From: Deltaproteobacteria bacterium
GTDB lineage: Bacteria > Desulfobacterota > Syntrophia > Syntrophales > JAFGHS01
NCBI GenBank assembly: GCA_016928025.1
Contig: JAFGLN010000031.1
Location: forward strand, 1-64,000
Direction of reading: 5' to 3'
Length of the DNA: 64,000 nt
This document shows positions 16,446-63,824 of the stretch, piece after piece; position 1 is the stretch's first letter; every line of letters begins with the position of its first letter. A program made the position numbers and the translations under genes. The notes beneath the pieces were generated by a model that worked only from the letters and a program-made list of their open reading frames with translations, was not told the origin of the DNA and made no database searches.

Positions 16446-16611
16446 AGTCAATAGACAAACCACGGACGCCGTTTTGCCGGCGTTTATCCTCTATCCGGAC
16501 GGTTGCCGGAGTCGGTTAAACCCGACACAGGAAGCACTTGACATAAAAATCATGATATAGGTATGTGTTGATGGATTGTTTGCTAAGGAATTCTTTTTGG
16601 GCCAGGTCTAC

Positions 16612-17814
16612 ATGAGCAAAAAGGCTCTTCAAAATATTATGGTGCTGGATTTTAGCCGGTCTATCGCCGGCCCCTATTGCACCAAACTGCTGGCGGCTTT
16701 CGGCGCGGAAGTCATCAAAGTGGAAGAACCGAAACGGGGCGATCCGGCCCGGTATGAAGGGCCTTTCCGGGATGACCGACCCGATCCGGAAGGGAGCGCC
16801 CTGTTTCTCTATCTTAATACGGGGAAAAAAAGCATTACCCTCGACCTGCAGGCAGTCGCCGAAACAAATCTGCTGAAAATGCTGATCAAAGAGGCCGATG
16901 TGCTCGTCGAAAATTTCCCGCCCGGATACATGGCCGATCTGGGTATCGGTTATGAAAAGCTGGCGAAAATTAATCCGGGATTGATTATGGTTTCCCTCAC
17001 GGATTTCGGCCAGGACGGTCCTTACAGGAATTATCAGGGCGGCCGTCTGGTGGAAAATGCCCTCAGCGGGTATATGTATGTCAACGGTGATCCCGGGCGG
17101 GAACCGCTGGCGGGCGGCGGGGAACAGCCCGCCTATCAGGGCGGACTTCACGCCTATGCGGGGATTCTGGCGGCCCTGATTTCACGACAATTGACCGGCC
17201 GGGGCTGGTATATCGATGTTTCCATCATGGAATGTATGGCTTCGCTGCACCAGTTTACGGTCAACCGGTATGCCTATTCCGGAAAAATTCAAAAGCGGGG
17301 CGGCAATCGACATATCTGGAGCCATCCGGTGACCGTTTATCCCTGCCGGGACGGCCACGTCTTGGTCTGCGCCGGTACGGAGGATCAAGCGGAAATGCTG
17401 CTGACGCTCGTTGGGGAGACCGATGCCCTGAATGATCCCCGGTTCGAAAGCGGCATTCAGAGACTTATTCACGCTGATGAATTCGATGGCTTGGTCAAAC
17501 CGTGGTTTCTTGACAAAACCAAAAAAGAAATTGTCGAGATCTGTCAGGAGTGGCGTATTCCTGTGGCACCGGTCAATGAGATCCCCGATCTTTATGAAGA
17601 CGAACAGCTTCGCGCCCGGGAGTACTGGATCGAACTCGATCATCCGGTGGCGGGAAGATTGCCCTATGCCGGCGCGCCCTTCAGAATGTCGGAAACACCG
17701 GCTGTCTACAGCCGGGCACCCCTTTTGGGCGAGCATAATGAAGAAATTTTTATCAGCCGCCTGGGCCTGACGGAAGCGGAAATGGGTCAATTAAAAAAGG
17801 ACGGCGTGATTTAG
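16612..17814 (+). CDS. CaiB/BaiF CoA-transferase, degenerate subunit of pair 1 (Asp to Ala)
   Basis: About 400 residues. The class III CoA-transferase fold is clear: LDFSRSIAGPYCTKLLAAFGAEVIKVEEP, VENFPPGYMADLGIGYEKL, GRGWYIDVSIMECMA, and the GEHNEEIF end. The segment aligned with the nucleophilic Asp169 of formyl-CoA transferase reads AYQGGLHAYAGILAAL, so residue 174 (codon 17131-17133) is Ala. The enzyme cannot form the usual aspartyl-CoA intermediate alone. The next gene keeps the Asp, so a heterodimer is likely. Start: the frame opens at a TTG at 16576, but the ATG at 16612 matches the family N-terminus. Confidence 0.92.
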   Translation: MSKKALQNIMVLDFSRSIAGPYCTKLLAAFGAEVIKVEEPKRGDPARYEGPFRDDRPDPEGSALFLYLNTGKKSITLDLQAVAETNLLKMLIKEADVLVENFPPGYMADLGIGYEKLAKINPGLIMVSLTDFGQDGPYRNYQGGRLVENALSGYMYVNGDPGREPLAGGGEQPAYQGGLHAYAGILAALISRQLTGRGWYIDVSIMECMASLHQFTVNRYAYSGKIQKRGGNRHIWSHPVTVYPCRDGHVLVCAGTEDQAEMLLTLVGETDALNDPRFESGIQRLIHADEFDGLVKPWFLDKTKKEIVEICQEWRIPVAPVNEIPDLYEDEQLRAREYWIELDHPVAGRLPYAGAPFRMSETPAVYSRAPLLGEHNEEIFISRLGLTEAEMGQLKKDGVI

Positions 17815-17900
17815 CGGGCGGCGTGCCCAATTCTGACGAAATGATTTGCACGGCGGCACCTGAGCGGTTGCCGGAACGCAGAGAAAGGAACCCTGTCGAC

Positions 17901-19157
17901 ATGTATCGTTTATTGGAGGGCATCCGGGTGCTCGATCTCACACGGGTCTGGTCGGGACCACTGGCGGGACGCATCCTGGCCGATCTGGGGGCGGAGGTCA
18001 TCCATATTCTCGGCCGCGTGACTGTTTCGGGAGAAAAAATACCTCCCGAACAGGTGGCGGTTTTGGGGACTTTTCCGGAGGATGATCCGGGCGCAAGACC
18101 CTGGAACAGGATGTCTCAGAATAACGACTTCAGCCGCAACAAACTCGGACTCACCCTGGAGCTTGATGTACCGGAAGGCATCGATCTTTTCAAGCGCCTG
18201 GTGGCGAAAAGCGATGTGGTTCTGGAAAATTTCAGTCCCCGGGTCATGACGAATTTCGGTTTGGATTATGACGTTCTCAAGAAAATCAACCCGGCCATTA
18301 TCGTTTGTTCCATGCCGGGTTTCGGTCTGACGGGTCCGCAAAAGGATTATATTTCCTACGGCGTTAATCTGGATTTCTTCTCCGGCCTGGCGAGTTTGAT
18401 GGGTTATCCGAATAAAGGGGCCCATATGTCCGGTAATGCCTATCCCGATGCGACAGCCGCTTTGCATGCCGTTGGCGCCATCCTGACGGCCCTCTTTCAT
18501 AAAATGCGCATGGGAAAGGGACAGCATATCGATCTTTCGCAGGCGGAATCCGCCGTGTCCGTGATCGGTGACGTTGCCCTGGGATTCGCTCTGAATGGTC
18601 ATGTTCCGCGGCGCCGGGGAAACCGCCATCCTGTGTATGCTCCTCACGGATGTTACCAATGCCGGGGGGAAGACCAATGGCTGGCGATTGCCGTATCGAC
18701 GGAAAGCCAGTGGAAGGCACTGATCGGCATTCCGGACATGCCCGCGCAAATGAAGGACGCAAAATACGGCGATCCCGAAAAGCGGCAGGCACATCATGAT
18801 GAACTGGATAAAATGATCGAATCATGGACAATTCAATATGATCACCGCGACGCCATGAGCATTCTTCAGAATGCCGGTATTCCCGCCGGGGCGGTTTTCG
18901 ATGCCGCTGAGCTGTTGGCCGACGAACACCTGTGCGAAAGAGATTTTTTCCTGCAGATGGATCACCCGGAGGCGGGGCTGCGACATTATTGCGGCCTGCC
19001 GATCAAGTTTTCCGGAACACCGGTCTCACCGGGCAATCCTCCTCCCCTGCTGGGCCAGCATAATGAATATGTCTTGAGCAAGATTCTTGGCCTTTCACCG
19101 GAAGAGATTACCCGCTGTGAACAAAATGGTGTCATCGGAACCGAACCGATTGATTAA
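17901..19157 (+). CDS. CaiB/BaiF CoA-transferase, catalytic subunit of pair 1
   Basis: About 418 residues of the class III family (RVLDLTRVWSGPLAGRILADLGAEVI, VLENFSPRVMTNFGLDYDVL, GKGQHIDLSQAESAV, LLGQHNEYVLSKILG). The nucleophile segment reads YPDATAALHAVGAILTAL; the Asp codon is 18447-18449 (residue 183 from this start). The start at 17901 (MYRLLEGIRV) has AGAAAGGAA upstream; the frame is open back to 17823. It follows the Asp-less partner by 86 bp. It is expected to move CoA between a carboxylic acid and an acyl-CoA donor, with the substrate unknown. Confidence 0.92.
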   Translation: MYRLLEGIRVLDLTRVWSGPLAGRILADLGAEVIHILGRVTVSGEKIPPEQVAVLGTFPEDDPGARPWNRMSQNNDFSRNKLGLTLELDVPEGIDLFKRLVAKSDVVLENFSPRVMTNFGLDYDVLKKINPAIIVCSMPGFGLTGPQKDYISYGVNLDFFSGLASLMGYPNKGAHMSGNAYPDATAALHAVGAILTALFHKMRMGKGQHIDLSQAESAVSVIGDVALGFALNGHVPRRRGNRHPVYAPHGCYQCRGEDQWLAIAVSTESQWKALIGIPDMPAQMKDAKYGDPEKRQAHHDELDKMIESWTIQYDHRDAMSILQNAGIPAGAVFDAAELLADEHLCERDFFLQMDHPEAGLRHYCGLPIKFSGTPVSPGNPPPLLGQHNEYVLSKILGLSPEEITRCEQNGVIGTEPID

Positions 19158-23356: not shown

Positions 23357-25090
23357 ATGCTTGCGGATGTTTACAAACTGGAACCTTACGAAAAGATCGA
23401 CAAGGTTGTTGATTTAAAAACAGCTATCGAAAAGCACATCAAAGACGGGATGACCCTCTATATCAGCCGGTCGGCGGAAGCCGCGGCAGCGGAAATCATC
23501 CGTCAGTTCTGGGACCGCAACCCCGATTTTACCCTGATGATGAATCTACCCGGAGGCGCTCAGGCCATGTGCCTGATGCACCGGGGCCTGATCAAAAAAC
23601 TGATTTTCACGACCTGCGCAGACCTCTATCCCAGCCCCAGCCCGAATCCGATTATCCAGCGGGCTTACCGGCAAAAAGCGGTCGAATTCGAAAACTGGTC
23701 GGTTCTGTCCTTTACCCAGGCCCTGATGGCGGGTGCCTTGAACCTGCCTTTTATGCCGACTCTGTCCATTACCGGCAGTGCCATGGCCGAAGAAAACAGC
23801 GGCGCCTTTACTCAGATTGAAGATCCTTTTTCCGGGGAGCCAATCGGTGTCGTAAAGCGTATGAACCCTGACGTGGCGCTCTATCACGGCTGGGCGGCCG
23901 ATGCGGCAGGCAATACCATTATCGCCCCTTACGGTGACGACCGGGAGTGGGGGGCGAAAGCCGCCACGTCCGGTGTTATTGTGACGGTGGAAAAGATCGT
24001 CTCCACGGATTTCATCCGGGAGCACGCCAACATGGTCAAAATACCCGCCTATATGGTGGATGCGGTCTGTCTCGCGCCTTTGGGCGCTCACCCGCGTGCC
24101 ATGAACAGCCGGGGACTTCCGGAATTTGAATCCTATGATGTGGATGTGCCGTTTTTAGAAGACTTCCGGGAGGCGGGCAAAAAACCGGAGACCCTCGATC
24201 AATGGGTCGGAGAGTGGATACTGGGCTGTAAAAACCATGAGGAGCGTCTGAAGAAATTAGGCGTCGAGCGGATTTACCGGCTGAAGGGCAAAACCGCTAA
24301 AGACAGCTGGCAGTACCGCTTTATTCAAACGGCGGATGAAGCCAGTGAACCCAAGCCATATAACGGCATCGAGTTTGCCATTGTCGCCGCCTCTCATAAA
24401 ATTAAGGACATCTTTATAAAGGGCGGCTTCAAAGCCATGTTCGCGGGTATCGGCATCGGTGGACTGGCCGCGTGGCTGGCCTACTATGCCCTGAAATCGG
24501 AAGGTTGTGAGGCGTATATGGTTGGTGCTGGTATCGGTTTCGATCCGCGCCCCGCCGATCCTCTCATGACGTCGTCCAGCAATATTGCCACATCGAGGAT
24601 GCTGGTAGATCCCATTGATATCCACGGCGTCTGCATCGGCGGCGTGAAAAAAGCGTGTCTCGGCATTCTGGGGGCGGCGCAAATCGACAAGAACGGAAAC
24701 CTCAATTCCTCCAAGGTGAGTGAAAAGACTTATATCGGCGGGGCCGGCGGCGGTAATGACATCGCCAACGGCGCGAAAGAGGTCGTTGTCATCACCAAGC
24801 AGAAAAAGGAGCGTTTTCTGGAGAAGGTATCTTACATCACCTGTGCCGGAAACCACGTGAAAACATTGATCTCCGATCTCGGCATTTTTGAAAAGAAAGG
24901 TGCTGCGTTCGAGTTGACGCATTATTTTTCTGCGGACGGAACTGCGAAAGACGACGTTTTGCAAAAGATCGCCGATCGTTGCGGGTGGGAATTGAAGGTC
25001 TCAGAGCGGGTTCAGGCGGCGGCCGAACCGACGGTTGAAGAATTGGCCTTGTTGAGATCGCTCGATCCGGAAGGGGTATTTATCGGTTAG
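23357..25090 (+). CDS. Fused family I CoA-transferase-like protein without nucleophilic Glu (IpdAB-like), copy 1
   Basis: 577 residues. The N-terminal half resembles glutaconate CoA-transferase subunit A (LKTAIEKHIKDGMTLYIS, ALYHGWAADAAGNTI). The C-terminal half resembles subunit B (GAAQIDKNGNLNSS, GGAGGGNDIA, VSYITCAGNHVKTLISDLGIF). The segment that carries the catalytic Glu in subunit B (ESG) reads VGAGIGFDP, so residue 390 is Gly. Loss of this Glu is also reported for IpdAB, a CoA-thioester C-C hydrolase of cholesterol ring cleavage. A ring-opening hydrolase is therefore an alternative to CoA transfer. CGGAGAT precedes the ATG. Confidence 0.88.
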   Translation: MLADVYKLEPYEKIDKVVDLKTAIEKHIKDGMTLYISRSAEAAAAEIIRQFWDRNPDFTLMMNLPGGAQAMCLMHRGLIKKLIFTTCADLYPSPSPNPIIQRAYRQKAVEFENWSVLSFTQALMAGALNLPFMPTLSITGSAMAEENSGAFTQIEDPFSGEPIGVVKRMNPDVALYHGWAADAAGNTIIAPYGDDREWGAKAATSGVIVTVEKIVSTDFIREHANMVKIPAYMVDAVCLAPLGAHPRAMNSRGLPEFESYDVDVPFLEDFREAGKKPETLDQWVGEWILGCKNHEERLKKLGVERIYRLKGKTAKDSWQYRFIQTADEASEPKPYNGIEFAIVAASHKIKDIFIKGGFKAMFAGIGIGGLAAWLAYYALKSEGCEAYMVGAGIGFDPRPADPLMTSSSNIATSRMLVDPIDIHGVCIGGVKKACLGILGAAQIDKNGNLNSSKVSEKTYIGGAGGGNDIANGAKEVVVITKQKKERFLEKVSYITCAGNHVKTLISDLGIFEKKGAAFELTHYFSADGTAKDDVLQKIADRCGWELKVSERVQAAAEPTVEELALLRSLDPEGVFIG

Positions 25091-25106: not shown

Positions 25107-26342
25107 ATGACGGGAACAAAAAGACATCCTCAACCCCTTGATCACCTCACGGTCATCGAAATCGGAAACAACATCTCCACGGCCTATGGTGCCAAGATGC
25201 TGGCCGATCAGGGGGCGGAGGTCATCAAAGTCGAAGATCCGCTGACGGCGGAAATGGACCGGACGGAAAGGATTTTGCCGGGTGATGAGAAAACCGGCTG
25301 CCTGTTTGCTTATATCAACTGCAACAAATTAGGTGTCCGTTTAAACCTGGAGACCGAGAAGGGACAGAAGGTCCTGGCTGATCTGGTCCGCAAGGCGGAT
25401 ATCCTGGTGGAAGGAAACCGGCCTTCCAGAGCGAAAGAGCTGGGACTGGATTATGAGACACTCTCAAAAATCAATCCACGGCTCCTGGTTGCTTCGATTA
25501 CGCCTTTCGGGCAGACAGGGCCTTATTGCGAATATAACGCCTATGCCATCACAGTGAGTGCCGCCGGCGCTTCCAGCGTGTGCATCGGAGAACCCGGACG
25601 AACGCCGCTGCCGCTACCTCTTTCTCAAGTTCATTTTCAGAGTGCCGCCATGGCGGCGACGGCCCTGCTGGGTGGCATTCTGGCCCGGGAATTCACGGGC
25701 CGGGGGCAGCATATCGATATCAGCGAGGCGGAAGTCTGGATCACCCACTTTACGGGGCATGCCGTGATTGCCTATGTCTTTCACAATAGACGCCGCATCC
25801 GGTCAGGTCACAAGACCCAGGCCCTTTTCCCGAATGGGATTTTTCACTGCAAAGACGGCTATATATCCTTGCTGGCCATGCGCGGCGAACAATGGAAGGC
25901 GTATCTCAATATTCTGGGTGAAGGGAAAATGCCGGACTGGTACGCGAATGATGAGAGATTCACAAGGACCAGTTTCCGGGAGCTTAACGTCAAATATGGC
26001 GATGAGTTGGAAGTCCTCATGGAAAAATGGCTGATGACCAAAACAAAAAATGAGATCTTCGAACTGGGCCGGATCAATCATGTTGCTTTGGCCCCGGTCA
26101 GAGATATTCGAGAAGTGCTGGAGGATCCCCATCTCAACGATAGAAAATATTTTGTGGATGTCGATGATCCCCAGTTCGGCAGGCTGAAATATCCCCAGTC
26201 GGCGCTCCGGTTTTCCCAGACGCCCTCCGCTGTTTACCGGCCGGCGCCGACATTGGGGGAGCACAATGAAGAAATTTTTTGCAAACGCCTCGGCTACACC
26301 AAAGAATATGTCAATGAACTTGCCGAATGCGGCGTGATTTAG
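25107..26342 (+). CDS. CaiB/BaiF CoA-transferase, degenerate subunit of pair 2 (Asp to His)
   Basis: 411 residues of the class III family (TVIEIGNNISTAYGAKMLAD, VEGNRPSRAKELGLDYETL, GRGQHIDISEAEVWI, LGEHNEEIFCKRLG). In the nucleophile segment HFQSAAMAATALL the Asp is replaced by His176 (codon 25632-25634). AAGGAG precedes the ATG. The Asp-bearing partner begins 18 bp after its stop. It resembles the degenerate subunits at 16612 and 33060 in its C-terminal wording. Confidence 0.92.
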   Translation: MTGTKRHPQPLDHLTVIEIGNNISTAYGAKMLADQGAEVIKVEDPLTAEMDRTERILPGDEKTGCLFAYINCNKLGVRLNLETEKGQKVLADLVRKADILVEGNRPSRAKELGLDYETLSKINPRLLVASITPFGQTGPYCEYNAYAITVSAAGASSVCIGEPGRTPLPLPLSQVHFQSAAMAATALLGGILAREFTGRGQHIDISEAEVWITHFTGHAVIAYVFHNRRRIRSGHKTQALFPNGIFHCKDGYISLLAMRGEQWKAYLNILGEGKMPDWYANDERFTRTSFRELNVKYGDELEVLMEKWLMTKTKNEIFELGRINHVALAPVRDIREVLEDPHLNDRKYFVDVDDPQFGRLKYPQSALRFSQTPSAVYRPAPTLGEHNEEIFCKRLGYTKEYVNELAECGVI

Positions 26343-26360
26343 GGAGGGAGATTTCAGCAG

Positions 26361-27608
26361 ATGGATAAAAGCAAATATCCTTTAAGCGGTATCCGGGTCC
26401 TCGACTTTGGATGGGTCGCCGCCGGCCCTTCGGCCACGAAAATACTGGCGGACATGGGCGCGGAGGTCATTAAGGTCGAATCCCGCAAGCGGCCCGATAC
26501 GACACGGTTTACGCCGGACAATATCGAGCGGTCGCCGGAGACGGACCCGGCCTTTCACAGCCTCAACCGCAATAAGCTGGGTATTACCATCGACATGACC
26601 AAACCGGAGGGATGTGAACTTTTGAGAAAGCTTGCCGCCAAGACTGATATCGTCCTGGAGAATTTCTTTCCCGGTGTCATGAAAAAGTTCGGTCTCGATT
26701 ATGAATCCCTGCGCAAAGTGAAACCGGATATCATCATGGTTTCCATGCCCGGTTTAGGCAACTGGGGGCCTCAAGCCGAGACGCCGTCCTATGCGCCGGG
26801 GCTTGCCGCTCTGTCCGGGCTGGAGAGCATGGTCGGATACAAAGGGGAGCGGGCTTTAGGCCTGCAGCAGCCCTATTCGGATTACAATGCGGGAACCAAT
26901 TCCGCCTTTGCCGCCCTGGCGGCCCTGATTCATCGGAATCGCACGGGGGAAGGACAAAATATTGAAGTGGCGCAGATTGAAGCCCTCGTCGCCTGCATCG
27001 GCGAAGCCGTTCTGGATTATCAGGTAACAGGTAAAGTGCCCGGTCTGGAGGGAAACCGCCACGGCCGGATGGCGCCCTACAACAACTACCTTTGCGACGG
27101 CGACGATAAATGGGTGTCCATTGCCGTGAGGACCGATGAGGAATGGAAAAATCTGGTCGAGGTGATGGCGGATGAACCTCGCCTTAAGAATGAGAAATTC
27201 GCCGCCATGGACGGACGAATGGCCAACCAGGATGAATTGGACGTTGTCATTTCGGACTGGACCATCAGCCGCTCAGCCGAAGAGATCACCGAGATGCTTC
27301 AGGAAAAGGGCGTGGCGGCTTTTCCCTGTATGGACATCGGCGATTGTTTTCTCGACCCGCATTTTCAGGATCGGGAGGTCTTCATTCCCTTGGAGCATCC
27401 CGTCTCCGGCGATGAGTTTATCGCCAATCTGTCCTGGAAAATGAGTGAAACGAACGGCGGCGTCTATCGGTCCGCACCGCTCTGGGGACAGCATAACCAC
27501 TATGTTTTCGGCGAAGTGCTGGGCTTGTCGCAGGAAGAGATTGCCAGGCTGGAAGATGCGGAGGTGATCCAAAAATTTCAGGAACCGGAGAGAAAGAATA
27601 AGGGATAG
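26361..27608 (+). CDS. CaiB/BaiF CoA-transferase, catalytic subunit of pair 2
   Basis: 415 residues (RVLDFGWVAAGPSATKILAD, VLENFFPGVMKKFGLDYESL, GEGQNIEVAQIEALV, WGQHNHYVFGEVLG). The nucleophile segment PYSDYNAGTNSAFAALAAL keeps the Asp at residue 174 (codon 26880-26882). It is most like the catalytic member of pair 3 (34273-35505). AGGGAGGGAG precedes the ATG. The partner is the preceding Asp-less gene. Confidence 0.93.
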   Translation: MDKSKYPLSGIRVLDFGWVAAGPSATKILADMGAEVIKVESRKRPDTTRFTPDNIERSPETDPAFHSLNRNKLGITIDMTKPEGCELLRKLAAKTDIVLENFFPGVMKKFGLDYESLRKVKPDIIMVSMPGLGNWGPQAETPSYAPGLAALSGLESMVGYKGERALGLQQPYSDYNAGTNSAFAALAALIHRNRTGEGQNIEVAQIEALVACIGEAVLDYQVTGKVPGLEGNRHGRMAPYNNYLCDGDDKWVSIAVRTDEEWKNLVEVMADEPRLKNEKFAAMDGRMANQDELDVVISDWTISRSAEEITEMLQEKGVAAFPCMDIGDCFLDPHFQDREVFIPLEHPVSGDEFIANLSWKMSETNGGVYRSAPLWGQHNHYVFGEVLGLSQEEIARLEDAEVIQKFQEPERKNKG

Positions 27609-30988: not shown

Positions 30989-31016
30989 AATATTTTAAAG
31001 AGGGAAACCATTGACC

Positions 31017-32783
31017 ATGAGTACCGAAATGATTGACGTCATCCGGCGGAATTTTGATCTGGATCTGGCTGAGGGCGGGGAAGACAAAGTCGTCGACCTT
31101 CCCGACGCCGTCAGAAAGCACATCAAACCGGGGCAGGCAATACTCCTGGGCGAATTCGCCAATGCGGCGACGCGGGAGATAGCGCGGCAGTTCCGGGATA
31201 CCGATGCGGCTTTCACCATTATCAATGCCAGCCGGGACTATTTATCGGCCCTGGTTTACAACGGCCTGGTAAAAAAGCTCATCGGTGTGGCCTATATGCA
31301 CCTCTACCCCACTACCGGGCCGAACCGCCTCATTCAAAAGGCCTTCAACGAAGGGCGCATTGCGATCGAGGGATGGACGTCCATCAGTTTGCAGCAGCGG
31401 TTGATCGCGGGTGCCATGGATATGGAATGTATGGTGACCAAGTCCCTCCTCGGGTCCGATATGGTTGCGGACAATTCGAGTAGTCTCCATACATTCCAAT
31501 GTCCTTTTGAGAGCGGGAAGGAGTTGGCCCTGGTCAAAGCGATCAATCCCGATATTGCCGTTGTCCACGGCTGGTTTGCCGACCGGCAGGGTAACATCAT
31601 TATGGGATCGCCTTACTATATGGGAACGAGCACCTGGGGCGCCCGGGCCAGTAAGGAAGGGGTTGTGGCGACGGTGGAAAAAATCGTTTCGACGGAGTTC
31701 ATCCGGAAGCATTCCTGCCTGGTGTCCATTCCCAGCTATATGGTGAAATCGGTTTCCGAAGTCCCGTTCGGAGCCCATCCTCAGAGCATGAATACCCTAG
31801 GCCTCGGCATGGACGGATATACCAGTTATCGGCCGGACATCCCCTTCATCGGCGCATACCGGGACACCGTTTCGGACCCTGCCAAGTTGAAGGCCTGGAT
31901 GGACGAGTGGGTTTATAATTGCTCCAGCCAGGAAGACTATCTGGCAAAACTGGGACGTGAGCGGCTCGATGCATTGTCTTCAGGCATCGGCGAGGGTGAG
32001 GGGCAGATGGAACTGGCTAATCTTTTAAGCACCGTATCCTTCAGCCCCGAATACACAAAAAACGAATTGACCGTTGTGGCGGCGGCGAGAAAGATCGAGG
32101 AGATCGTCCTCCGGAAGGGTTATGTCAATTTCCTGCTCGGCGTCGGTTTCAGCGCCCTGGCCGGCTGGTCAGCATACTACCAGCTGAAAAAGCAAGACAT
32201 CCCCATTAAATTGTTGATCGGCACGGGGGTATACGGCTATTCGCCGCAGCCCGGCAATCCGTCCATCGGCGCGACGTCCAACATCGAAACGGGCTGCCTG
32301 ATGACCGATGCGTTCCAGAGCTACGGCACGTTCATCGGCGGATACAACAATCGCTGCTTGAGCGTCCTGGGGGCGGCGCAGGTCGACAAACACGGCAACG
32401 TCAACGCGACCAAGGTGAACGGCCAGTTTATCGCCGGCTCCGGGGGATCCAACGACGCGGTGAACGCACAAGAGGTCATGGTCATTTCCCGGCAGTCTCC
32501 CAAGCGTTATGTCGATCGCGTCGATTACATTACCTCTCCGGGGACGAGGGTCAAAACCCTCGTGTCCGACATGGGGGTTTTTGAGAAACTGGGCGACGAC
32601 AAAGAATTCACATTGACGGGCGTCCATGTTAGCGGGGCCGGTTTGGAGGAGAAGATCAAAACAGTTCGTGAGAACTGCGGCTGGGACCTGAAGGTTGCCG
32701 CCGATGTGAAGGAGATGGCCGCGCCGGATGTGGAAGAGCTGGCTATGATCCGGTGCTTTGATCCGGACAGGTTGTATAGATAA
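31017..32783 (+). CDS. Fused family I CoA-transferase-like protein without nucleophilic Glu (IpdAB-like), copy 2
   Basis: 588 residues, the same A+B fusion as 23357-25090 and clearly its paralog (VVHGWFADRQGNIIMG, GAAQVDKHGNVNATKV, GSGGSNDAV, YITSPGTRVKTLVSDMGVF). The catalytic-Glu position again holds Gly (residue 402 in LLIGTGVYGYSPQP). Two separately retained copies sharing the same loss point to a real function. The ATG at 31017 has GAGGGA about 12 bases upstream; a TTG at 31011 is in frame. It may act as a CoA-thioester ring hydrolase like IpdAB (inference). Confidence 0.88.
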   Translation: MSTEMIDVIRRNFDLDLAEGGEDKVVDLPDAVRKHIKPGQAILLGEFANAATREIARQFRDTDAAFTIINASRDYLSALVYNGLVKKLIGVAYMHLYPTTGPNRLIQKAFNEGRIAIEGWTSISLQQRLIAGAMDMECMVTKSLLGSDMVADNSSSLHTFQCPFESGKELALVKAINPDIAVVHGWFADRQGNIIMGSPYYMGTSTWGARASKEGVVATVEKIVSTEFIRKHSCLVSIPSYMVKSVSEVPFGAHPQSMNTLGLGMDGYTSYRPDIPFIGAYRDTVSDPAKLKAWMDEWVYNCSSQEDYLAKLGRERLDALSSGIGEGEGQMELANLLSTVSFSPEYTKNELTVVAAARKIEEIVLRKGYVNFLLGVGFSALAGWSAYYQLKKQDIPIKLLIGTGVYGYSPQPGNPSIGATSNIETGCLMTDAFQSYGTFIGGYNNRCLSVLGAAQVDKHGNVNATKVNGQFIAGSGGSNDAVNAQEVMVISRQSPKRYVDRVDYITSPGTRVKTLVSDMGVFEKLGDDKEFTLTGVHVSGAGLEEKIKTVRENCGWDLKVAADVKEMAAPDVEELAMIRCFDPDRLYR

Positions 32784-33059: not shown

Positions 33060-34271
33060 ATGACAAAAAAAGCCTTGAGTGGACTGAAAATCGTTGAATA
33101 CGGCCATTTCATTTCGGCGCCGTATTGCACGAAACTGATGGCCGATCTGGGTGCTGAAGTCATCAAGATTGAAAATCCCGCTGAGGGCGGCGATGAATCG
33201 AGACGCCACGGCCCTTTCCCCGGCGATGTACCGCATCCGGAGAAGAGCGGTCTGTTTCTGTGGCTTAATGCCAACAAAAAGGGCATTGCTCTGGATATTA
33301 CATCGGACGCGGGACGGGATGTTTTTTGCAAACTGCTGAATGATGCAGATGTTTTTGTGGCCAATTATCCGCCCAGCGAGACGGAGGAATTAGGCATCGA
33401 TTACGAAGCACTTTCCGGGATTAATCCGCAGCTCGTTGTCACGAGCATCTCGCCATTCGGCCAGTGGGGACCCTACCGGGATTATAAAGCTTATGAATTG
33501 AACTGTCAGGCGGCCGGAGGCGTCAGTGTGGCGTCCGGTGATCCGGAAAGAGCGCCGCTCGTTTTGCCTTTATTCCAGAGCTACTATCAGGCCGGTGCCG
33601 CCGCGGCCGGGGCGACGCTCACGGCGTTGCTTGCCCGCGACAGAATCGGCCGCGGTCAGCACATCGAGATCTCGGAGGTGGAAGTATCGGCCAACAACCT
33701 CGTGGGGCAGCATTTAACCACCTACATCTACCGCGGCCTCACCGGAATCAGGAAAGGTCATCAAGGCGGCTATTTCAACTATCCCACCTGCTGTCTGCCG
33801 TGCAAAGACGGCTATATCTGTCTTGTTGCCCCGCAGGTCGCCCAGTGGAAACGATTCATTGAACTCATGGGAACTCCCGAGTGGTCGAAAAACCCGCGCT
33901 ACCGCGACCGCCGCGAAATGGCGGAATCCTATCCCGAGGAGGTAGACGCCCTCCTGATTGACTGGTTAAAGGACTATACGAAGGAAGAAATTTTTGCCCT
34001 GTGCATGGAGCATCATATCCCCTTCAGTCCGGTCAGAACCGTTGATGAAGTCGCTCATGATAAGCAGCTTGAAGCGCGACGCTTTTTTGTCGAAATCGAT
34101 CATCCTGTCGCGGGGAAATTGAAATATCCCGGCACAGGTTATGAGTTATCCAAGACGCCCGTGAAAATCGAATGCGCAGCGCCCCGTCTGGGCGAACACA
34201 ACCGGGAGATCATGGGCGAACGTCTGGGATATTCCGATGAAGACATCGAACGAATCATAAAGGAGCAATGA
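33060..34271 (+). CDS. CaiB/BaiF CoA-transferase, degenerate subunit of pair 3 (Asp to Tyr)
   Basis: 403 residues (LKIVEYGHFISAPYCTKLMADL, FVANYPPSETEELGIDYEAL, GRGQHIEISEVEVSA, LGEHNREIMGERLG). The nucleophile segment is SYYQAGAAAAGATLTALL; Tyr175 (codon 33582-33584) stands where the Asp should be. Its stop codon is one base before the ATG of the Asp-bearing partner, so the two are translationally coupled. That is strong support for a stable two-subunit enzyme. Confidence 0.93.
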   Translation: MTKKALSGLKIVEYGHFISAPYCTKLMADLGAEVIKIENPAEGGDESRRHGPFPGDVPHPEKSGLFLWLNANKKGIALDITSDAGRDVFCKLLNDADVFVANYPPSETEELGIDYEALSGINPQLVVTSISPFGQWGPYRDYKAYELNCQAAGGVSVASGDPERAPLVLPLFQSYYQAGAAAAGATLTALLARDRIGRGQHIEISEVEVSANNLVGQHLTTYIYRGLTGIRKGHQGGYFNYPTCCLPCKDGYICLVAPQVAQWKRFIELMGTPEWSKNPRYRDRREMAESYPEEVDALLIDWLKDYTKEEIFALCMEHHIPFSPVRTVDEVAHDKQLEARRFFVEIDHPVAGKLKYPGTGYELSKTPVKIECAAPRLGEHNREIMGERLGYSDEDIERIIKEQ

Positions 34272-34272
34272 C

Positions 34273-35505
34273 ATGTTGAGTCTTGAAGGCTATAGAATCG
34301 TTGATTTCGGAACAGCCTGGGCGGGTCCCATGACCACGCAACTCTTGGCGGATATGGGTGCCGAGGTCATCAAAGTGGAAACAAAAAGCCGTCTGGATGG
34401 TCTTCGGATGGGCCGGCCGATCGTAGGAGACGATATCGCCGGCGGCGATGAGGGAAAGTGGCCGAATCTGCAGCCGGCCTTCCATTCGTTGAATCGCAAT
34501 AAGATGAGCATCACCGTGGACATCAAAACGGAAAAGGGCCTTGATCTGATCAGAAACCTGATCAGGCTCAGCGATGTGGTGAGCGATAATTTCAGTCCCG
34601 GTGTCCTGGACAGAGCCGGTCTGGGGTATGACGATCTGGTCAAAATCAAATCGGATATTATTTGTATTTCATTAAGCGGCGTTGGGCAATACGGTCCCCT
34701 GAAAGACGCGACTCTTTATGCCAACACCATTATGGCCCTGTCCGGTTTGAGTTCTCTTATCGGTTATAAGGGAGAGCCGCTTATGGGAATGTCCGCCGTG
34801 GCGTATGGCGATGCCAACGCCAGTATCCATGCGGCCTTCACGATCTTAGCCGCTCTGTTTCATCGAAAGAGGACAGGCGAAGGACAAAAAATCGATCTGG
34901 CGGAAGCCCAGATGGGTAGCAGCCTGATGGGCGAAGCCCTGATGGATTATTTTATGAACGGACGCATTGCCGAGCCTCAAGGCAACCGCCATCCCACTAT
35001 GGCGCCTCATAATAACTATCAATGCGAAGGCGAAGACAAATGGATTTCCATTGCCGTCAGGACCGACGAAGAATGGAATAAATTTTGTGAAGCCATCGGA
35101 AATCCCGAATGGTGCAAGGACGAGAAGTTTGCCGATGCGAAGAGTCGCTGGGAAAACCAGGACGAATTGGATCGGCACATTACGGAATGGACCATCGATC
35201 GGGAGAACAACGATGTGATGGAACTCCTGCAGGGCGTCGGCGTTGCCGCTGTTTCCTGTATGAATACGGAGGACCAGTATTTCGATCCCCATTTCAATGA
35301 GCGGCAAAGCCACATTGAAATCGAACATCCTCTGGTGGGGGTGGAGTCGCTTTACGGTATTCCCTGGCGATTGAGCGAAACGCCGGGCGAAATTTACCGT
35401 CCGGCGCCGTCCATCGGGGAGCATAATGATTATGTTTTTGGGGAACTTTTAGGCAAATCGAAAGAGGAGATTGAAAGGTTGGTTGAGGCGAAGGTTATTT
35501 ATTAA
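34273..35505 (+). CDS. CaiB/BaiF CoA-transferase, catalytic subunit of pair 3
   Basis: 410 residues (YRIVDFGTAWAGPMTTQLLAD, VSDNFSPGVLDRAGLGYDDL, GEGQKIDLAEAQMGSS, IGEHNDYVFGELLG). The nucleophile Asp180 lies in AYGDANASIHAAFTILAAL (codon 34810-34812). The ribosome-binding site AAGGAG is inside the end of the upstream gene. It closely resembles the catalytic subunit of pair 2. Confidence 0.93.
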   Translation: MLSLEGYRIVDFGTAWAGPMTTQLLADMGAEVIKVETKSRLDGLRMGRPIVGDDIAGGDEGKWPNLQPAFHSLNRNKMSITVDIKTEKGLDLIRNLIRLSDVVSDNFSPGVLDRAGLGYDDLVKIKSDIICISLSGVGQYGPLKDATLYANTIMALSGLSSLIGYKGEPLMGMSAVAYGDANASIHAAFTILAALFHRKRTGEGQKIDLAEAQMGSSLMGEALMDYFMNGRIAEPQGNRHPTMAPHNNYQCEGEDKWISIAVRTDEEWNKFCEAIGNPEWCKDEKFADAKSRWENQDELDRHITEWTIDRENNDVMELLQGVGVAAVSCMNTEDQYFDPHFNERQSHIEIEHPLVGVESLYGIPWRLSETPGEIYRPAPSIGEHNDYVFGELLGKSKEEIERLVEAKVIY

Positions 35506-36086: not shown

Positions 36087-37322
36087 ATGGCCGAAGAAAA
36101 AAAACAAAACCTTCAGGATGGTGCCTTGACGGGCATCAAGATTCTGGATTTGAGCCGTACCTTACCGGGGCCTTTCTGTACACTGATGCTGGCGGATATG
36201 GGGGCGGAGGTCATCAAAATCCAGGAGGCCCGGCGCCGACGGAATTCTCTGGAGACCCTGGTGCCGAAGTCCGAGCTGACCACCGACGACCTGAAGGCAG
36301 GCTATACGCCTCATCGAGCCATCGACCGGAACAAGAAAGGCATTGCTCTTAATTTAAAAAACGAGGCGGCCCGTGAGATTTTTTACAAGCTGGTGAAAGA
36401 CGGTGATGTCGTGGTTATTGAGTTCCGCCCTGATGTTGGTAAGCGCCTCAAGATCGACTATGACACGTTGAAAGCCATCAATCCGCGAATTATCTATTGC
36501 GCTGTTACAGCTTATGGTCAGGATGGTCCCTATGCTGATTATCCCGCCCACGATGCAAATGTCATTGCTGCTGCCGGCATTTTGGGTGCGACAGGTACGC
36601 CTGACGGGCAATATGTCCTGCCGGGCGTGCCCATTGCCGATCTTTGCGGGGGAGGCATGAACGCCGCTGTCGGTATTCTGACGGCCCTTTTTGCCCGGGA
36701 GAAGACAGGGAGGGGGCAGTTTGTCGACATTTCCATGATGGATGGTGCGGTGGCCATGATGCTGGCTCGTCACAACATGCTTTACGGTATTACCGGCCAA
36801 TCGCCGAAGGCCGGCCAGCGGCCGTCCCATGTGTACCGTACCAGGGATGATAAGTCTATCTGTTTTGCCGGCGGCGAGCCCTGGTTCTGGGAAAGACTTT
36901 GTAAAACTTTGGATCTGGAAGAACTGATTCCCTATGATCAGGCCATTAAGCCGTTTGCGGGCTTCAGTAAGGAACGGGAATGGGTCATCTCAAAACTGAC
37001 GGAGAAATTTCTCTCCAAGACCCGCGATGAATGGCTGGAGAGCCTGCATAAGGCCGATACATGCATTGCCCCGGTCCATACGGCCATGGATGACGTCCTT
37101 AACGATCCGCAGGTGAAGCACCGCCGGATGATGGTAGAGGTTGAAGATCCCATTCTCGGGAAGATTCCACAACCGGGTATCGCCATCAAGCTGTCTGAGA
37201 CGCCGGGCCGGATACGGACTCTTGCGCCCAGGCACGGCCAGCACACATCGGAGATATTGGCCGGGCTGGGGTACAGCGATGAAGAGGTTGAAGAATTAAA
37301 GAAAGACGGCGCGGTCGTTTGA
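36087..37322 (+). CDS. CaiB/BaiF CoA-transferase, single catalytic gene
   Basis: 411 residues (IKILDLSRTLPGPFCTLMLADM, VIEFRPDVGKRLKIDYDTL, GRGQFVDISMMDGAV, GQHTSEILAGLGYSDEEV). The nucleophile Asp185 is in PIADLCGGGMNAAVGILTAL (codon 36639-36641). It is most like the other single gene at 27617-28801 (shared YSDEE/YSEDE C-terminus) and looks like a conventional enzyme. The ribosome-binding site is weak (GAGGAAATG). Confidence 0.93.
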   Translation: MAEEKKQNLQDGALTGIKILDLSRTLPGPFCTLMLADMGAEVIKIQEARRRRNSLETLVPKSELTTDDLKAGYTPHRAIDRNKKGIALNLKNEAAREIFYKLVKDGDVVVIEFRPDVGKRLKIDYDTLKAINPRIIYCAVTAYGQDGPYADYPAHDANVIAAAGILGATGTPDGQYVLPGVPIADLCGGGMNAAVGILTALFAREKTGRGQFVDISMMDGAVAMMLARHNMLYGITGQSPKAGQRPSHVYRTRDDKSICFAGGEPWFWERLCKTLDLEELIPYDQAIKPFAGFSKEREWVISKLTEKFLSKTRDEWLESLHKADTCIAPVHTAMDDVLNDPQVKHRRMMVEVEDPILGKIPQPGIAIKLSETPGRIRTLAPRHGQHTSEILAGLGYSDEEVEELKKDGAVV

Positions 37323-37327
37323 AATAA

Positions 37328-37397
37328 AAGGATCAAGGTCCAAGGTGCAAGGTAGAAAAAATAACTCCTTTTTCCTGCAGCTTGGCCCTTGATCCTT
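37328..37397. repeat. Inverted AAGGATCAAGG repeat (hairpin)
   Basis: AAGGATCAAGGTCCAAG at 37328-37344 and CTTGGCCCTTGATCCTT at 37381-37397 are inverse copies with one mismatch. The hairpin lies between two CoA-transferase genes, just after the stop of the first. It could slow or end transcription but has no clear T-run. Confidence 0.5.
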
Positions 37398-37423
37398 GAA
37401 CCTATCTTCTTGAGGAGTTTTTT

Positions 37424-39862
37424 ATGTCTAAATCTGCACTGAGCGGTATTAAAGTTGTTGAACTGGCGACGATGTATTCCGGACCTTACTGTGGAAAATT
37501 GCTGGCGGACCTCGGCGCCGATGTTATCAAGGTCGAACCGCCCGTGGGTGACCCCGCACGTTTTGAAGGTGCGTTTCCGACGGAAGAACCCCATCCCGAA
37601 AAGAGCGTCCTTTTTCTCTATTTGAACACGAGTAAACGCGGCGTGACTTTCGATTTGAACAAAACCGCCGACCTGGAGCAATTCAAAAAGCTGCTTGGCT
37701 GGGCCGATGTTCTTATCGACAACCATCGCCCCGATTATCTGCCGAGCTTGGGACTGGACTGGCAAACCATCCGGAAATTATATCCCCGTTTGATTTATAC
37801 CTCCATTACGCCTTATGGATGCGTCGGTCCCCGGGCCCTCCAGGAAGCGGGCGAAATGACGATCGTCCATGCCGCGGGATTGGGCAATCTCCTGCCCGCC
37901 AAAGCGGTGGATATCAGCAGACCTCCCGTCAAAACGGGCGGAAACACAGCCCAGTATATCGCCGGTATCTATGCGGCTTTGAGTACCGCTGCGTCCCTCA
38001 TTGGCAGGCGCAAAACCGGGTTGGGCAATTTCATCGACATATCGATTCAAGATGTGATTATGAATCTCATTGCGCCTCGGATCACGATGAACAGATACCA
38101 GTTTACCTCATGGGGCCGTGTTCCCGATCGTCCTCAGGCCATGGGCCGGATGGAAACGAGCGATGGGTATATTGTGCTGGCGGCCAACGACGATCATCAT
38201 TTCCGCGCCGTTCGTGAATTGGTGGGCAATCCTGATTGGGCGCAGAACGATGGCTGGAACGATCGAGGCTGGCGGCTTAATCATCTGATGGATGTTGCGC
38301 CCCAGATGGAAGCCTGGATGCGCGAGCAGAAAAAATTTGAACTCTATCACCGGGCCGCCAAAATGAAGATTCCTATCGGGACGATCAACACGGCCAAAGA
38401 CGTCATGGAAAGCGAACAGTACAAATCGCGGGGATTTTTCATTGATGTGGATCATCCGGTGGCCGGAAAATACCCTTACGCCGGATGGTCTTACAAGATG
38501 CCCGCTTCGCCGCCCCGGGTCAGCCGGCCGTCACCCTTGTTGGGCCAGCATAATGAAGAGGTTTTTTCGGAGATTGCGAAAATAGAGCCAGTTGATGTTA
38601 AACCTTTATCTCAGAAAGATTTGGCAAATCCGGAAAATTTTGTGCACCCCCTCAAAGGCATCCGGATTCTCGATTTCAGCTGGGTCTGGGCGGGTCCTTA
38701 CTGTAATCTCCTTTTGGGCGCCCTGGGGGCCGAGGTGATCAAAATCGAGGGCCATAACCGGCTGGATCTGTCCCGCCGTAACTATCCGTGGCCTCTTCCC
38801 AATCCGGCACCGATAAAAACGCCGCCCAACCAGGGCATGTCCTTCAATTCCGTCAACATGAATAAAAAGAGTGCGACCATCGATCTAAGCAAACCGGAAG
38901 GGCTGGCGCTGACCCGAAAGCTCGTCGCCGTGAGCAACGTCGTCATCGACAACATGCGTGCCGGCGCCATGATCAAGCTCGGCCTTGGCTATGAAGACCT
39001 GCGCCGGATCCGCCCCGACATCATCGCCATGACCATTGCCAGCCGCGGAATGACCGGCCCGGAAAGGGATTATCTCGGTTATGCCAATATCCATCACGCC
39101 ATCGGCGGCGCGGCCTATTTAACGGGTTTCCCCGATGACCACCCCAGCCATGGTGCGGGCGGCGATACGGACATCTTTGATGCCACAACGGCTGCATTCG
39201 CCGTCGTCGCGGCACTTCATCACCATGCGCAGACGGGTGAGGGACAGTTCATCGATCTGTCTCAATGTGAGGGGGTCAGTTCCCTCATCGGCGAGTATCT
39301 TCTGGAATACGCCATGACCGGCAAAATCCCGGAACGCATCGGCAATGCCCATCCGCGGTATGCCCCCCATGCCGTTTATCGATGCTGGGGCGTCGACCGC
39401 TGGCTGGCGCTGGAAATCCGTTCCGATGATGAATTTGCAAAACTGGCCCGGATCATCGGGCGGCCGGAGCTGGTGACGAACCGGCGTTTTAAGACGATGG
39501 CCGCCCGCAAGCGAAACGAAAAGGCCCTCGATAAATTCATTGAAGACTGGACGAAAGAACGGGATCGCGACTGGATGGTCAAGGAATTTTGTGAAGCGGG
39601 CCTGATTGCGGCGCCATCCCGTGAGGGGAGAGACCTGTATGCGGACGAACATCTCCGGGTTAGAGGAAGCTTTGTTAAAATCGACCATCCGGAACTCGGT
39701 GAATTGGAAATGGTCAGGGTCCCCTGGCGGATGAACGATCAATTGGCGCCGATGACGGCCGCCCCGCAATTGGCGAAACACAACCCATACGTCTTCGGCG
39801 AAATCCTGGAGCTGAGCAATGAGGAGATAAACGAACTGAGAGACAAGAAGGTGATAATGTAG
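37424..39862 (+). CDS. Fused double CaiB/BaiF CoA-transferase (degenerate half + catalytic half)
   Basis: 812 residues, twice the family length. The N-terminal domain (about 1-385) has VVELATMYSGPYCGKLLADLG, GLGNFIDISIQDVIM and LLGQHNEEVFSEIA. After a short linker a second full domain (about 404-812) begins IRILDFSWVWAGPYCNLLLGALG. In the N-half the nucleophile position is Gln177 (QYIAGIYAALSTA, codon 37952-37954); in the C-half Asp586 is kept (FDATTAAFAVVAAL, codon 39179-39181). This is a one-chain version of the Asp-less/Asp-bearing pairs elsewhere in the cluster, in the same order, and supports a heterodimer model for them. There is no internal stop or frame change. Confidence 0.95.
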   Translation: MSKSALSGIKVVELATMYSGPYCGKLLADLGADVIKVEPPVGDPARFEGAFPTEEPHPEKSVLFLYLNTSKRGVTFDLNKTADLEQFKKLLGWADVLIDNHRPDYLPSLGLDWQTIRKLYPRLIYTSITPYGCVGPRALQEAGEMTIVHAAGLGNLLPAKAVDISRPPVKTGGNTAQYIAGIYAALSTAASLIGRRKTGLGNFIDISIQDVIMNLIAPRITMNRYQFTSWGRVPDRPQAMGRMETSDGYIVLAANDDHHFRAVRELVGNPDWAQNDGWNDRGWRLNHLMDVAPQMEAWMREQKKFELYHRAAKMKIPIGTINTAKDVMESEQYKSRGFFIDVDHPVAGKYPYAGWSYKMPASPPRVSRPSPLLGQHNEEVFSEIAKIEPVDVKPLSQKDLANPENFVHPLKGIRILDFSWVWAGPYCNLLLGALGAEVIKIEGHNRLDLSRRNYPWPLPNPAPIKTPPNQGMSFNSVNMNKKSATIDLSKPEGLALTRKLVAVSNVVIDNMRAGAMIKLGLGYEDLRRIRPDIIAMTIASRGMTGPERDYLGYANIHHAIGGAAYLTGFPDDHPSHGAGGDTDIFDATTAAFAVVAALHHHAQTGEGQFIDLSQCEGVSSLIGEYLLEYAMTGKIPERIGNAHPRYAPHAVYRCWGVDRWLALEIRSDDEFAKLARIIGRPELVTNRRFKTMAARKRNEKALDKFIEDWTKERDRDWMVKEFCEAGLIAAPSREGRDLYADEHLRVRGSFVKIDHPELGELEMVRVPWRMNDQLAPMTAAPQLAKHNPYVFGEILELSNEEINELRDKKVIM

Positions 39863-63734: not shown

Positions 63735-63824
63735 AGGAACAAGGTTCAAGGATAAAGGTTCAAGGAGCAAGGTACAAAGTACAAGGAGCAAGGTGCAAGG
63801 TACAAGAGACAAGGTTAAAGGGAC
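63735..63824. repeat. AAGGTTCAAGG-type tandem short repeats
   Basis: About nine degenerate copies of AAGGTTCAAGG / GGAGCAAGGTACAA between mntP and the last gene, of the same type as at 809-880. Confidence 0.65.

Follow-up and report, generated by a model that had tools for sequence, protein, structure and literature searches.

The canonical reaction of type III coenzyme A (CoA)-transferases proceeds through a mixed anhydride and then an aspartyl-CoA thioester (PMC6006322). FRC, CaiB, SUGCT and YfdW are each encoded by one gene and are homodimers with two Asp sites per dimer. In a homodimeric relative with interlocked subunits, every active site is located between one subunit's large domain and its partner's small domain (PMC9196870). 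BbsEF (PDB 9fn0, 9fol, 9fun) combines a non-catalytic and a catalytic partner on separate chains, BbsE with Tyr and BbsF with Asp178; the title of entry 9fol names the D178-CoA adduct of BbsEF. Two-domain members are also known, and 2401 from bacteria were listed in 2018 (PMC6006322). In PtmU4 and its homologs the Asp of the C-terminal domain is conserved, and its mutation costs PtmU4 125-400-fold activity; DddD was placed outside the other two-domain enzymes (PMC6006322). In Endozoicomonas DddD the CaiB domains span residues 1-416 and 439-821 (PMC7174347). Here we describe a two-domain gene from a Deltaproteobacteria bacterium of the order Syntrophales, located in a stretch of 64,000 nucleotides (contig JAFGLN010000031.1, positions 1 to 64,000; the window). 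Judged from its sequence, the product is a type III (family III, CaiB/BaiF) CoA-transferase with two domains. Catalysis very probably depends on Asp583 of the C-terminal half, with a non-catalytic N-terminal half completing a pseudo-dimer, and the gene probably derives from a joined gene pair.

Comparison with these systems places the fused protein between the two-domain enzymes and BbsEF. It shares tandem type III domains, a poorly conserved linker and an Asp in the C-terminal domain with the former, whereas neither ddd genes nor a thioacid cassette were found near the fused gene. A non-catalytic and a catalytic partner, as in BbsEF, are predicted within its one chain of 812 amino acids. The predicted fold and nucleophile chemistry are those of the one-gene enzymes FRC, CaiB, SUGCT and YfdW, which differ in their homodimeric organization. 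Two-domain CoA-transferases with a conserved Asp in the second domain are already described, and the fused gene adds one member; as the architecture is known, the gene alone is no surprise. Less documented are fused and split orthologs in congeneric species and a common group of BbsF-like proteins and fused second halves. Neither was found stated in the open-access literature, which does not include most subscription papers, and keyword searches on family III heterodimers and SmtAB returned nothing useful.

Domain organization and nucleophile residues

The fused gene (37424-39862, + strand) is one open frame of 812 codons without an internal stop. Its product matched PF02515 (CoA_transf_3) in two stretches with 618.9 bits (cut-off 23.3, E = 4e-186; Pfam). 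A scan against NCBIfam gave sub-threshold matches only (formyl-CoA transferase, succinate-glutarate and mesaconate CoA-transferases), so that the protein has no curated equivalog.

A preliminary description of this DNA had recognized the 812-residue frame with two complete CaiB domains, in agreement with these data, and had assigned Gln177 and Asp586 to the nucleophile positions of the first and second domain. Alignment to the family hidden Markov model (HMM) confirmed the column of Gln177 but corrected the second assignment by three residues. Residue 583 is the one that shares a column with Gln177; residue 586 follows three columns further on (local sequence GGDTD583-IFD586). Asp583 is one of 20 columns invariant in 24 fused proteins, and it aligns with BbsF Asp178, the position equivalent to FRC Asp169. 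Asp586 is unconserved and replaced by Asn in the close relatives L003, L004, L031 and L034. The order of a degenerate followed by a catalytic domain, which the preliminary description had compared with the gene pairs of the window, is borne out with Gln177/Asp583 in the fused protein and Tyr/Asp, His/Asp and Ala/Asp in the pairs (Table 1).

The fused frame in other genomes

An assembly artefact, in which two neighboring genes were wrongly joined, was considered, as the assembly is fragmented (126 contigs) and one paralog in the same genome (L002) is truly split. The preliminary description had named a stop codon between the halves near 38600 as the sign of such an error; no stop or frame break was found there. 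The independent assembly G001, which represents another species of the same genus, contains the fused frame with 88% identity. This ortholog (L031) is accompanied by the same neighboring pairs and the same single gene as in the window. Further fused relatives with 51-61% identity are two paralogs in the same genome (L003, L004), L034 of G001, and proteins from a genome of the same order (L032), from Deltaproteobacteria bacterium RBG_13_43_22 (L045) and from a Thermoanaerobaculia metagenome-assembled genome (MAG; L049). Moreover, the linker stands in place of the tail of a first subunit and therefore reflects more than a simple lost stop. The identical architecture of the sister-species gene rules out an assembly error, the probability of which we regard as negligible.

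A fused protein annotated simply as CoA transferase is also encoded on a Variovorax plasmid. Viral relatives were limited to distant single-domain matches, and there was no PHROG match. Of 155 genomes in the class to which the window belongs, only 3 carry the subfamily. Its closest relatives are found in separate phyla, namely Deltaproteobacteria (L045), Acidobacteriota (L049) and Chloroflexota (L046). This patchy spread across phyla suggests horizontal transfer.

Split counterparts and the junction

Close relatives also exist as two adjacent genes. L002, on contig C123 of the same genome, is 60% identical to the fused protein over the full length and yet split, and the split pair L046 from a Dehalococcoidales MAG is 54% identical. 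Both agree with the earlier proposal that the fused gene is a natural fusion of a degenerate and a catalytic partner. The pairs of the window itself were ruled out as its source because their halves are only ~28-39% identical to those of the fused protein.

L034, the G001 ortholog of L002, comprises a single gene. Both loci are colinear over 5,030 bp with a DNA identity of 76%, the halves of the proteins are 89% and 90% identical, and gene order and start residues agree in the flanks. From open reading frame (ORF) order and start residues, we take the upstream flank to contain tol-type genes and the downstream flank hypA and a transporter. The junction of L002 consists of the stop codon TAG, the ribosome-binding site GGGAGG, a TAA stop in the old frame and the ATG. 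A 21-nt in-frame gap in L034 spans both stops as well as the ribosome-binding site, and ACG is found where L002 has ATG. Furthermore, the first gene of L002 ends in the tail usual for separate first subunits, LGYSSDEFKRLKNAQVI, and the first gene of L046 is likewise tailed. Fused proteins carry unrelated linkers where the tail would be, and these differ between paralogs as well as between orthologs. Because of the tail in the split forms and the in-frame gap over stops and ribosome-binding site, the L002/L034 locus likely records a fusion by in-frame deletion.

The opposite course would make the fused form ancestral in the subfamily and L002 a secondary split. L002 is nested among fused relatives in the concatenated tree with a support of 100/100, and by tree parsimony alone one fission is obtained. 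Such a fission is nevertheless unlikely: L002 keeps the C-terminal tail of the family, as does split L046, while fused proteins lack it; L034 is gapped precisely at the stop and ribosome-binding site and has ACG for ATG; and the linkers are unlike between paralogs. In the favored course, fusion, neighboring co-translated genes would have been joined in register with loss of stop, ribosome-binding site and second start. The locus offers a natural experiment, as split and fused orthologs with 89-90% identity occupy one position in two congeners, and L002 and L034 allow a direct test of the effect of fusion on a heteromeric CoA-transferase.

Conservation of the two halves across the family

A collection of contigs from many genomes was scanned with the alignment of fused proteins, and the resulting 80 loci were classified by domain content; fused status was called without any residue criterion. 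All 28 fused proteins in which both columns were readable have Asp in the second domain. With the exception of L053, the first domain is devoid of Asp (27 of 28), which is replaced by Gly, Tyr, Gln, Ser, Ala, Pro or His. As first and second members of separate pairs were assigned by the nucleophile residue, the non-Asp/Asp pattern of those pairs is partly due to construction. In all 49 loci compared, column 583 is Asp.

Phylogenetic analysis of 141 domains placed all second domains (51, BbsF included) in one group with a Shimodaira-Hasegawa-like approximate likelihood ratio test (SH-aLRT) value of 100. Four second members labelled as single genes also fell into this group, and one-gene enzymes were outside. 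BbsF is 34% identical to the C-terminal half of the fused protein. Among the first domains, BbsE included, the only one-gene enzymes were first members of Asp/Asp pairs. Other two-domain proteins from public genomes grouped with the fused protein. A concatenated tree of 50 loci required at least seven changes between fused and split forms; supported branches make all of these necessary, and bootstraps gave 7-9. In 27 separate pairs the distances of N- and C-terminal halves were correlated (r = 0.84, Mantel p 0.001), to which shared descent contributes.

Given the common grouping of second halves and at least seven interchanges between the fused and the split state, fusion appears to be recurrent in the family, which supports obligate pairing of the halves. 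The preliminary description had taken the fused gene to strengthen a heterodimer reading of the pairs, and the well-supported group of fused C-terminal halves, second genes of pairs and BbsF is in line with this. By the gene-fusion argument, the numerous CaiB genes arranged in adjacent pairs in genomes of this kind would encode obligate partners, and their annotation should be that of subunits of a single enzyme, the first being non-catalytic.

Structure model and proposed mechanism

An AlphaFold2 model of the 812 residues calculated with 24 fused sequences reached a mean predicted local distance difference test (pLDDT) score of 90.6 and a predicted template modeling (pTM) score of 0.93. Low confidence was restricted to residues 234-239 and 402-404, the latter being part of the linker. 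Structural matches of the C-terminal half were SUGCT (Z 29.2, root-mean-square deviation (rmsd) 1.9 Å) and BbsF (Z 28.6, rmsd 1.8 Å); those of the N-terminal half were YfdE (Z 27.3) and Rv3272 (Z 26.4).

We propose that both halves assemble into a single pseudo-dimer corresponding to the BbsE-BbsF heteromer, their physical pairing being suggested by BbsEF and by the gene fusion. By analogy with the interlocked homodimer, the working site would join the large domain of the C-terminal half and the small domain of the N-terminal half. Asp583 would supply the nucleophile and form a mixed acyl anhydride followed by an aspartyl-CoA thioester. The N-terminal half, whose nucleophile is lost (Gln177), would be a partner with a structural and probably also a substrate-shaping role, leaving one working active site per chain instead of two.

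Two observations weigh against this proposal. In 49 loci, conservation of the small domain was lower in the N-terminal half (1.72 bits, residues 240-322) than in the C-terminal half (2.33 bits, residues 646-728), although a small domain closing over the working site might predict the opposite; perhaps the N-terminal small domain sets substrate specificity. In addition, Asp is present in both halves of the fused L053 (5968-8421) and of three pairs from G003 (L038, L039, L043). These loci would also fit an enzyme with two active halves and two substrate specificities. For the fused protein this is very unlikely, since position 177, occupied by Gln here, has Gly or Ser in close relatives and is variable (1.14 bits) as opposed to the invariant residue 583. 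L033 of G051, the sister of L038, has Asn in the first half. Together with the Asp/Asp loci, it may reflect recent loss or regain of a second active site.

Gene neighborhood and possible substrates

The positions of the fused gene, its parts and the other CoA-transferase genes of this family in the window are summarized in Table 1.

Table 1. Coordinates of the fused gene, its elements and related CoA-transferase genes in the window.
Feature	Position	Strand	Remarks
Shine-Dalgarno-like GAGGAG	37412..37417	+	6 nt 5' of ATG; sequence
812-aa ORF, two-domain CoA-transferase	37424..39862	+	ORF, Pfam; ortholog L031 88% identical
N-terminal PF02515 domain, predicted non-catalytic half, residues ~5-387	37436..38584	+	
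Gln177 codon, N-half nucleophile column, Asp lost	37952..37954	+	family HMM alignment
Linker, residues ~388-408	38585..38647	+	orthologs differ in sequence; model pLDDT falls
C-terminal PF02515 domain, predicted catalytic half, residues 409-812	38648..39859	+	
Asp583 codon, predicted catalytic nucleophile	39170..39172	+	counterpart of BbsF Asp178
Asp586 codon, residue of the preliminary description	39179..39181	+	unconserved
Adjacent CoA-transferase pair, separate genes	33060..35505	+	33060-34271 non-Asp (Tyr); 34273-35505 Asp
Adjacent CoA-transferase pair, separate genes	25107..27608	+	25107-26342 non-Asp (His); 26361-27608 Asp
Adjacent CoA-transferase pair, separate genes	16576..19157	+	16576-17814 non-Asp (Ala); 17823-19157 Asp
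Single-gene CoA-transferase with Asp	36087..37322	+	tree: with one-gene enzymes, apart from pairs

Pfam scanning of the neighborhood revealed an IclR regulator, enoyl-CoA hydratases, MaoC, an AMP-ligase, an acyl-CoA mutase with MeaB, and MmgE/PrpD. This gene content points to acyl-CoA catabolism without singling out an acid. Around the paralogs no shared pathway was seen: according to ORF order and start residues, the surroundings of L003 and L004 are unrelated to those of L002 and L034.

Two described functions of two-domain proteins were set aside as unlikely from the neighboring genes. A DddD-type enzyme, which couples CoA transfer to dimethylsulfoniopropionate lysis, has the same architecture, a single chain of ~820 residues comprising two CaiB domains (PMC7174347). 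As no BCCT transporter, LysR regulator or dddB/dddC alcohol/aldehyde dehydrogenases were present among the Pfam-scanned neighbors, and given the outlying position of DddD mentioned above (PMC6006322), this function is highly improbable. Even less credit is given to a PtmU4-type thioacid-forming enzyme transferring sulfur to an acyl group. An AMP-ligase gene indeed lies 1.6 kb downstream of the fused gene, but the genome yielded a single gene for a ThiS-like sulfur carrier, located on another contig (C29). Compared by description, PtmU4 has its Asp at position 430 and not near 583, which implies a much shorter N-terminal domain than in the fused protein (from PMC6006322).

Benzylsuccinate or another fumarate adduct as substrate received no support from the glycyl radical enzymes scanned. 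Five such enzymes of the genome scored best on models of PFL2-type enzymes, sulfopropanediol dehydratase and hydroxyproline dehydratase, all below the NCBIfam cut-offs, and none of the five was recognized as a benzylsuccinate synthase type enzyme. Altogether, the genome (G000) encodes about nine glycyl radical enzymes that are full-length or nearly so, on contigs C18, C47, C52, C70, C115 and C124.

Other features of the window

Two ORFs of ~580 amino acids (23357-25090 and 31011-32783) matched family I CoA-transferases (PF01144) and scored far below all NCBIfam cut-offs. They possibly represent fused A and B subunits of an uncharacterized enzyme.

Just 5' of the fused gene, a strong hairpin (37328-37397, z -5.2) carries the 7-nt unit CCTTGAN. 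Allowing one mismatch, the 16-mer CCTTGATCCTTGAACC occurs 45 times in the genome, often in tandem, compared with 0 occurrences of the reversed control. Sites in the window are the hairpin itself, 831-846 and 63743-63772. From its sequence distribution, CCTTGAN is best described as a dispersed heptad repeat, which forms a predicted palindrome upstream of the fused gene.
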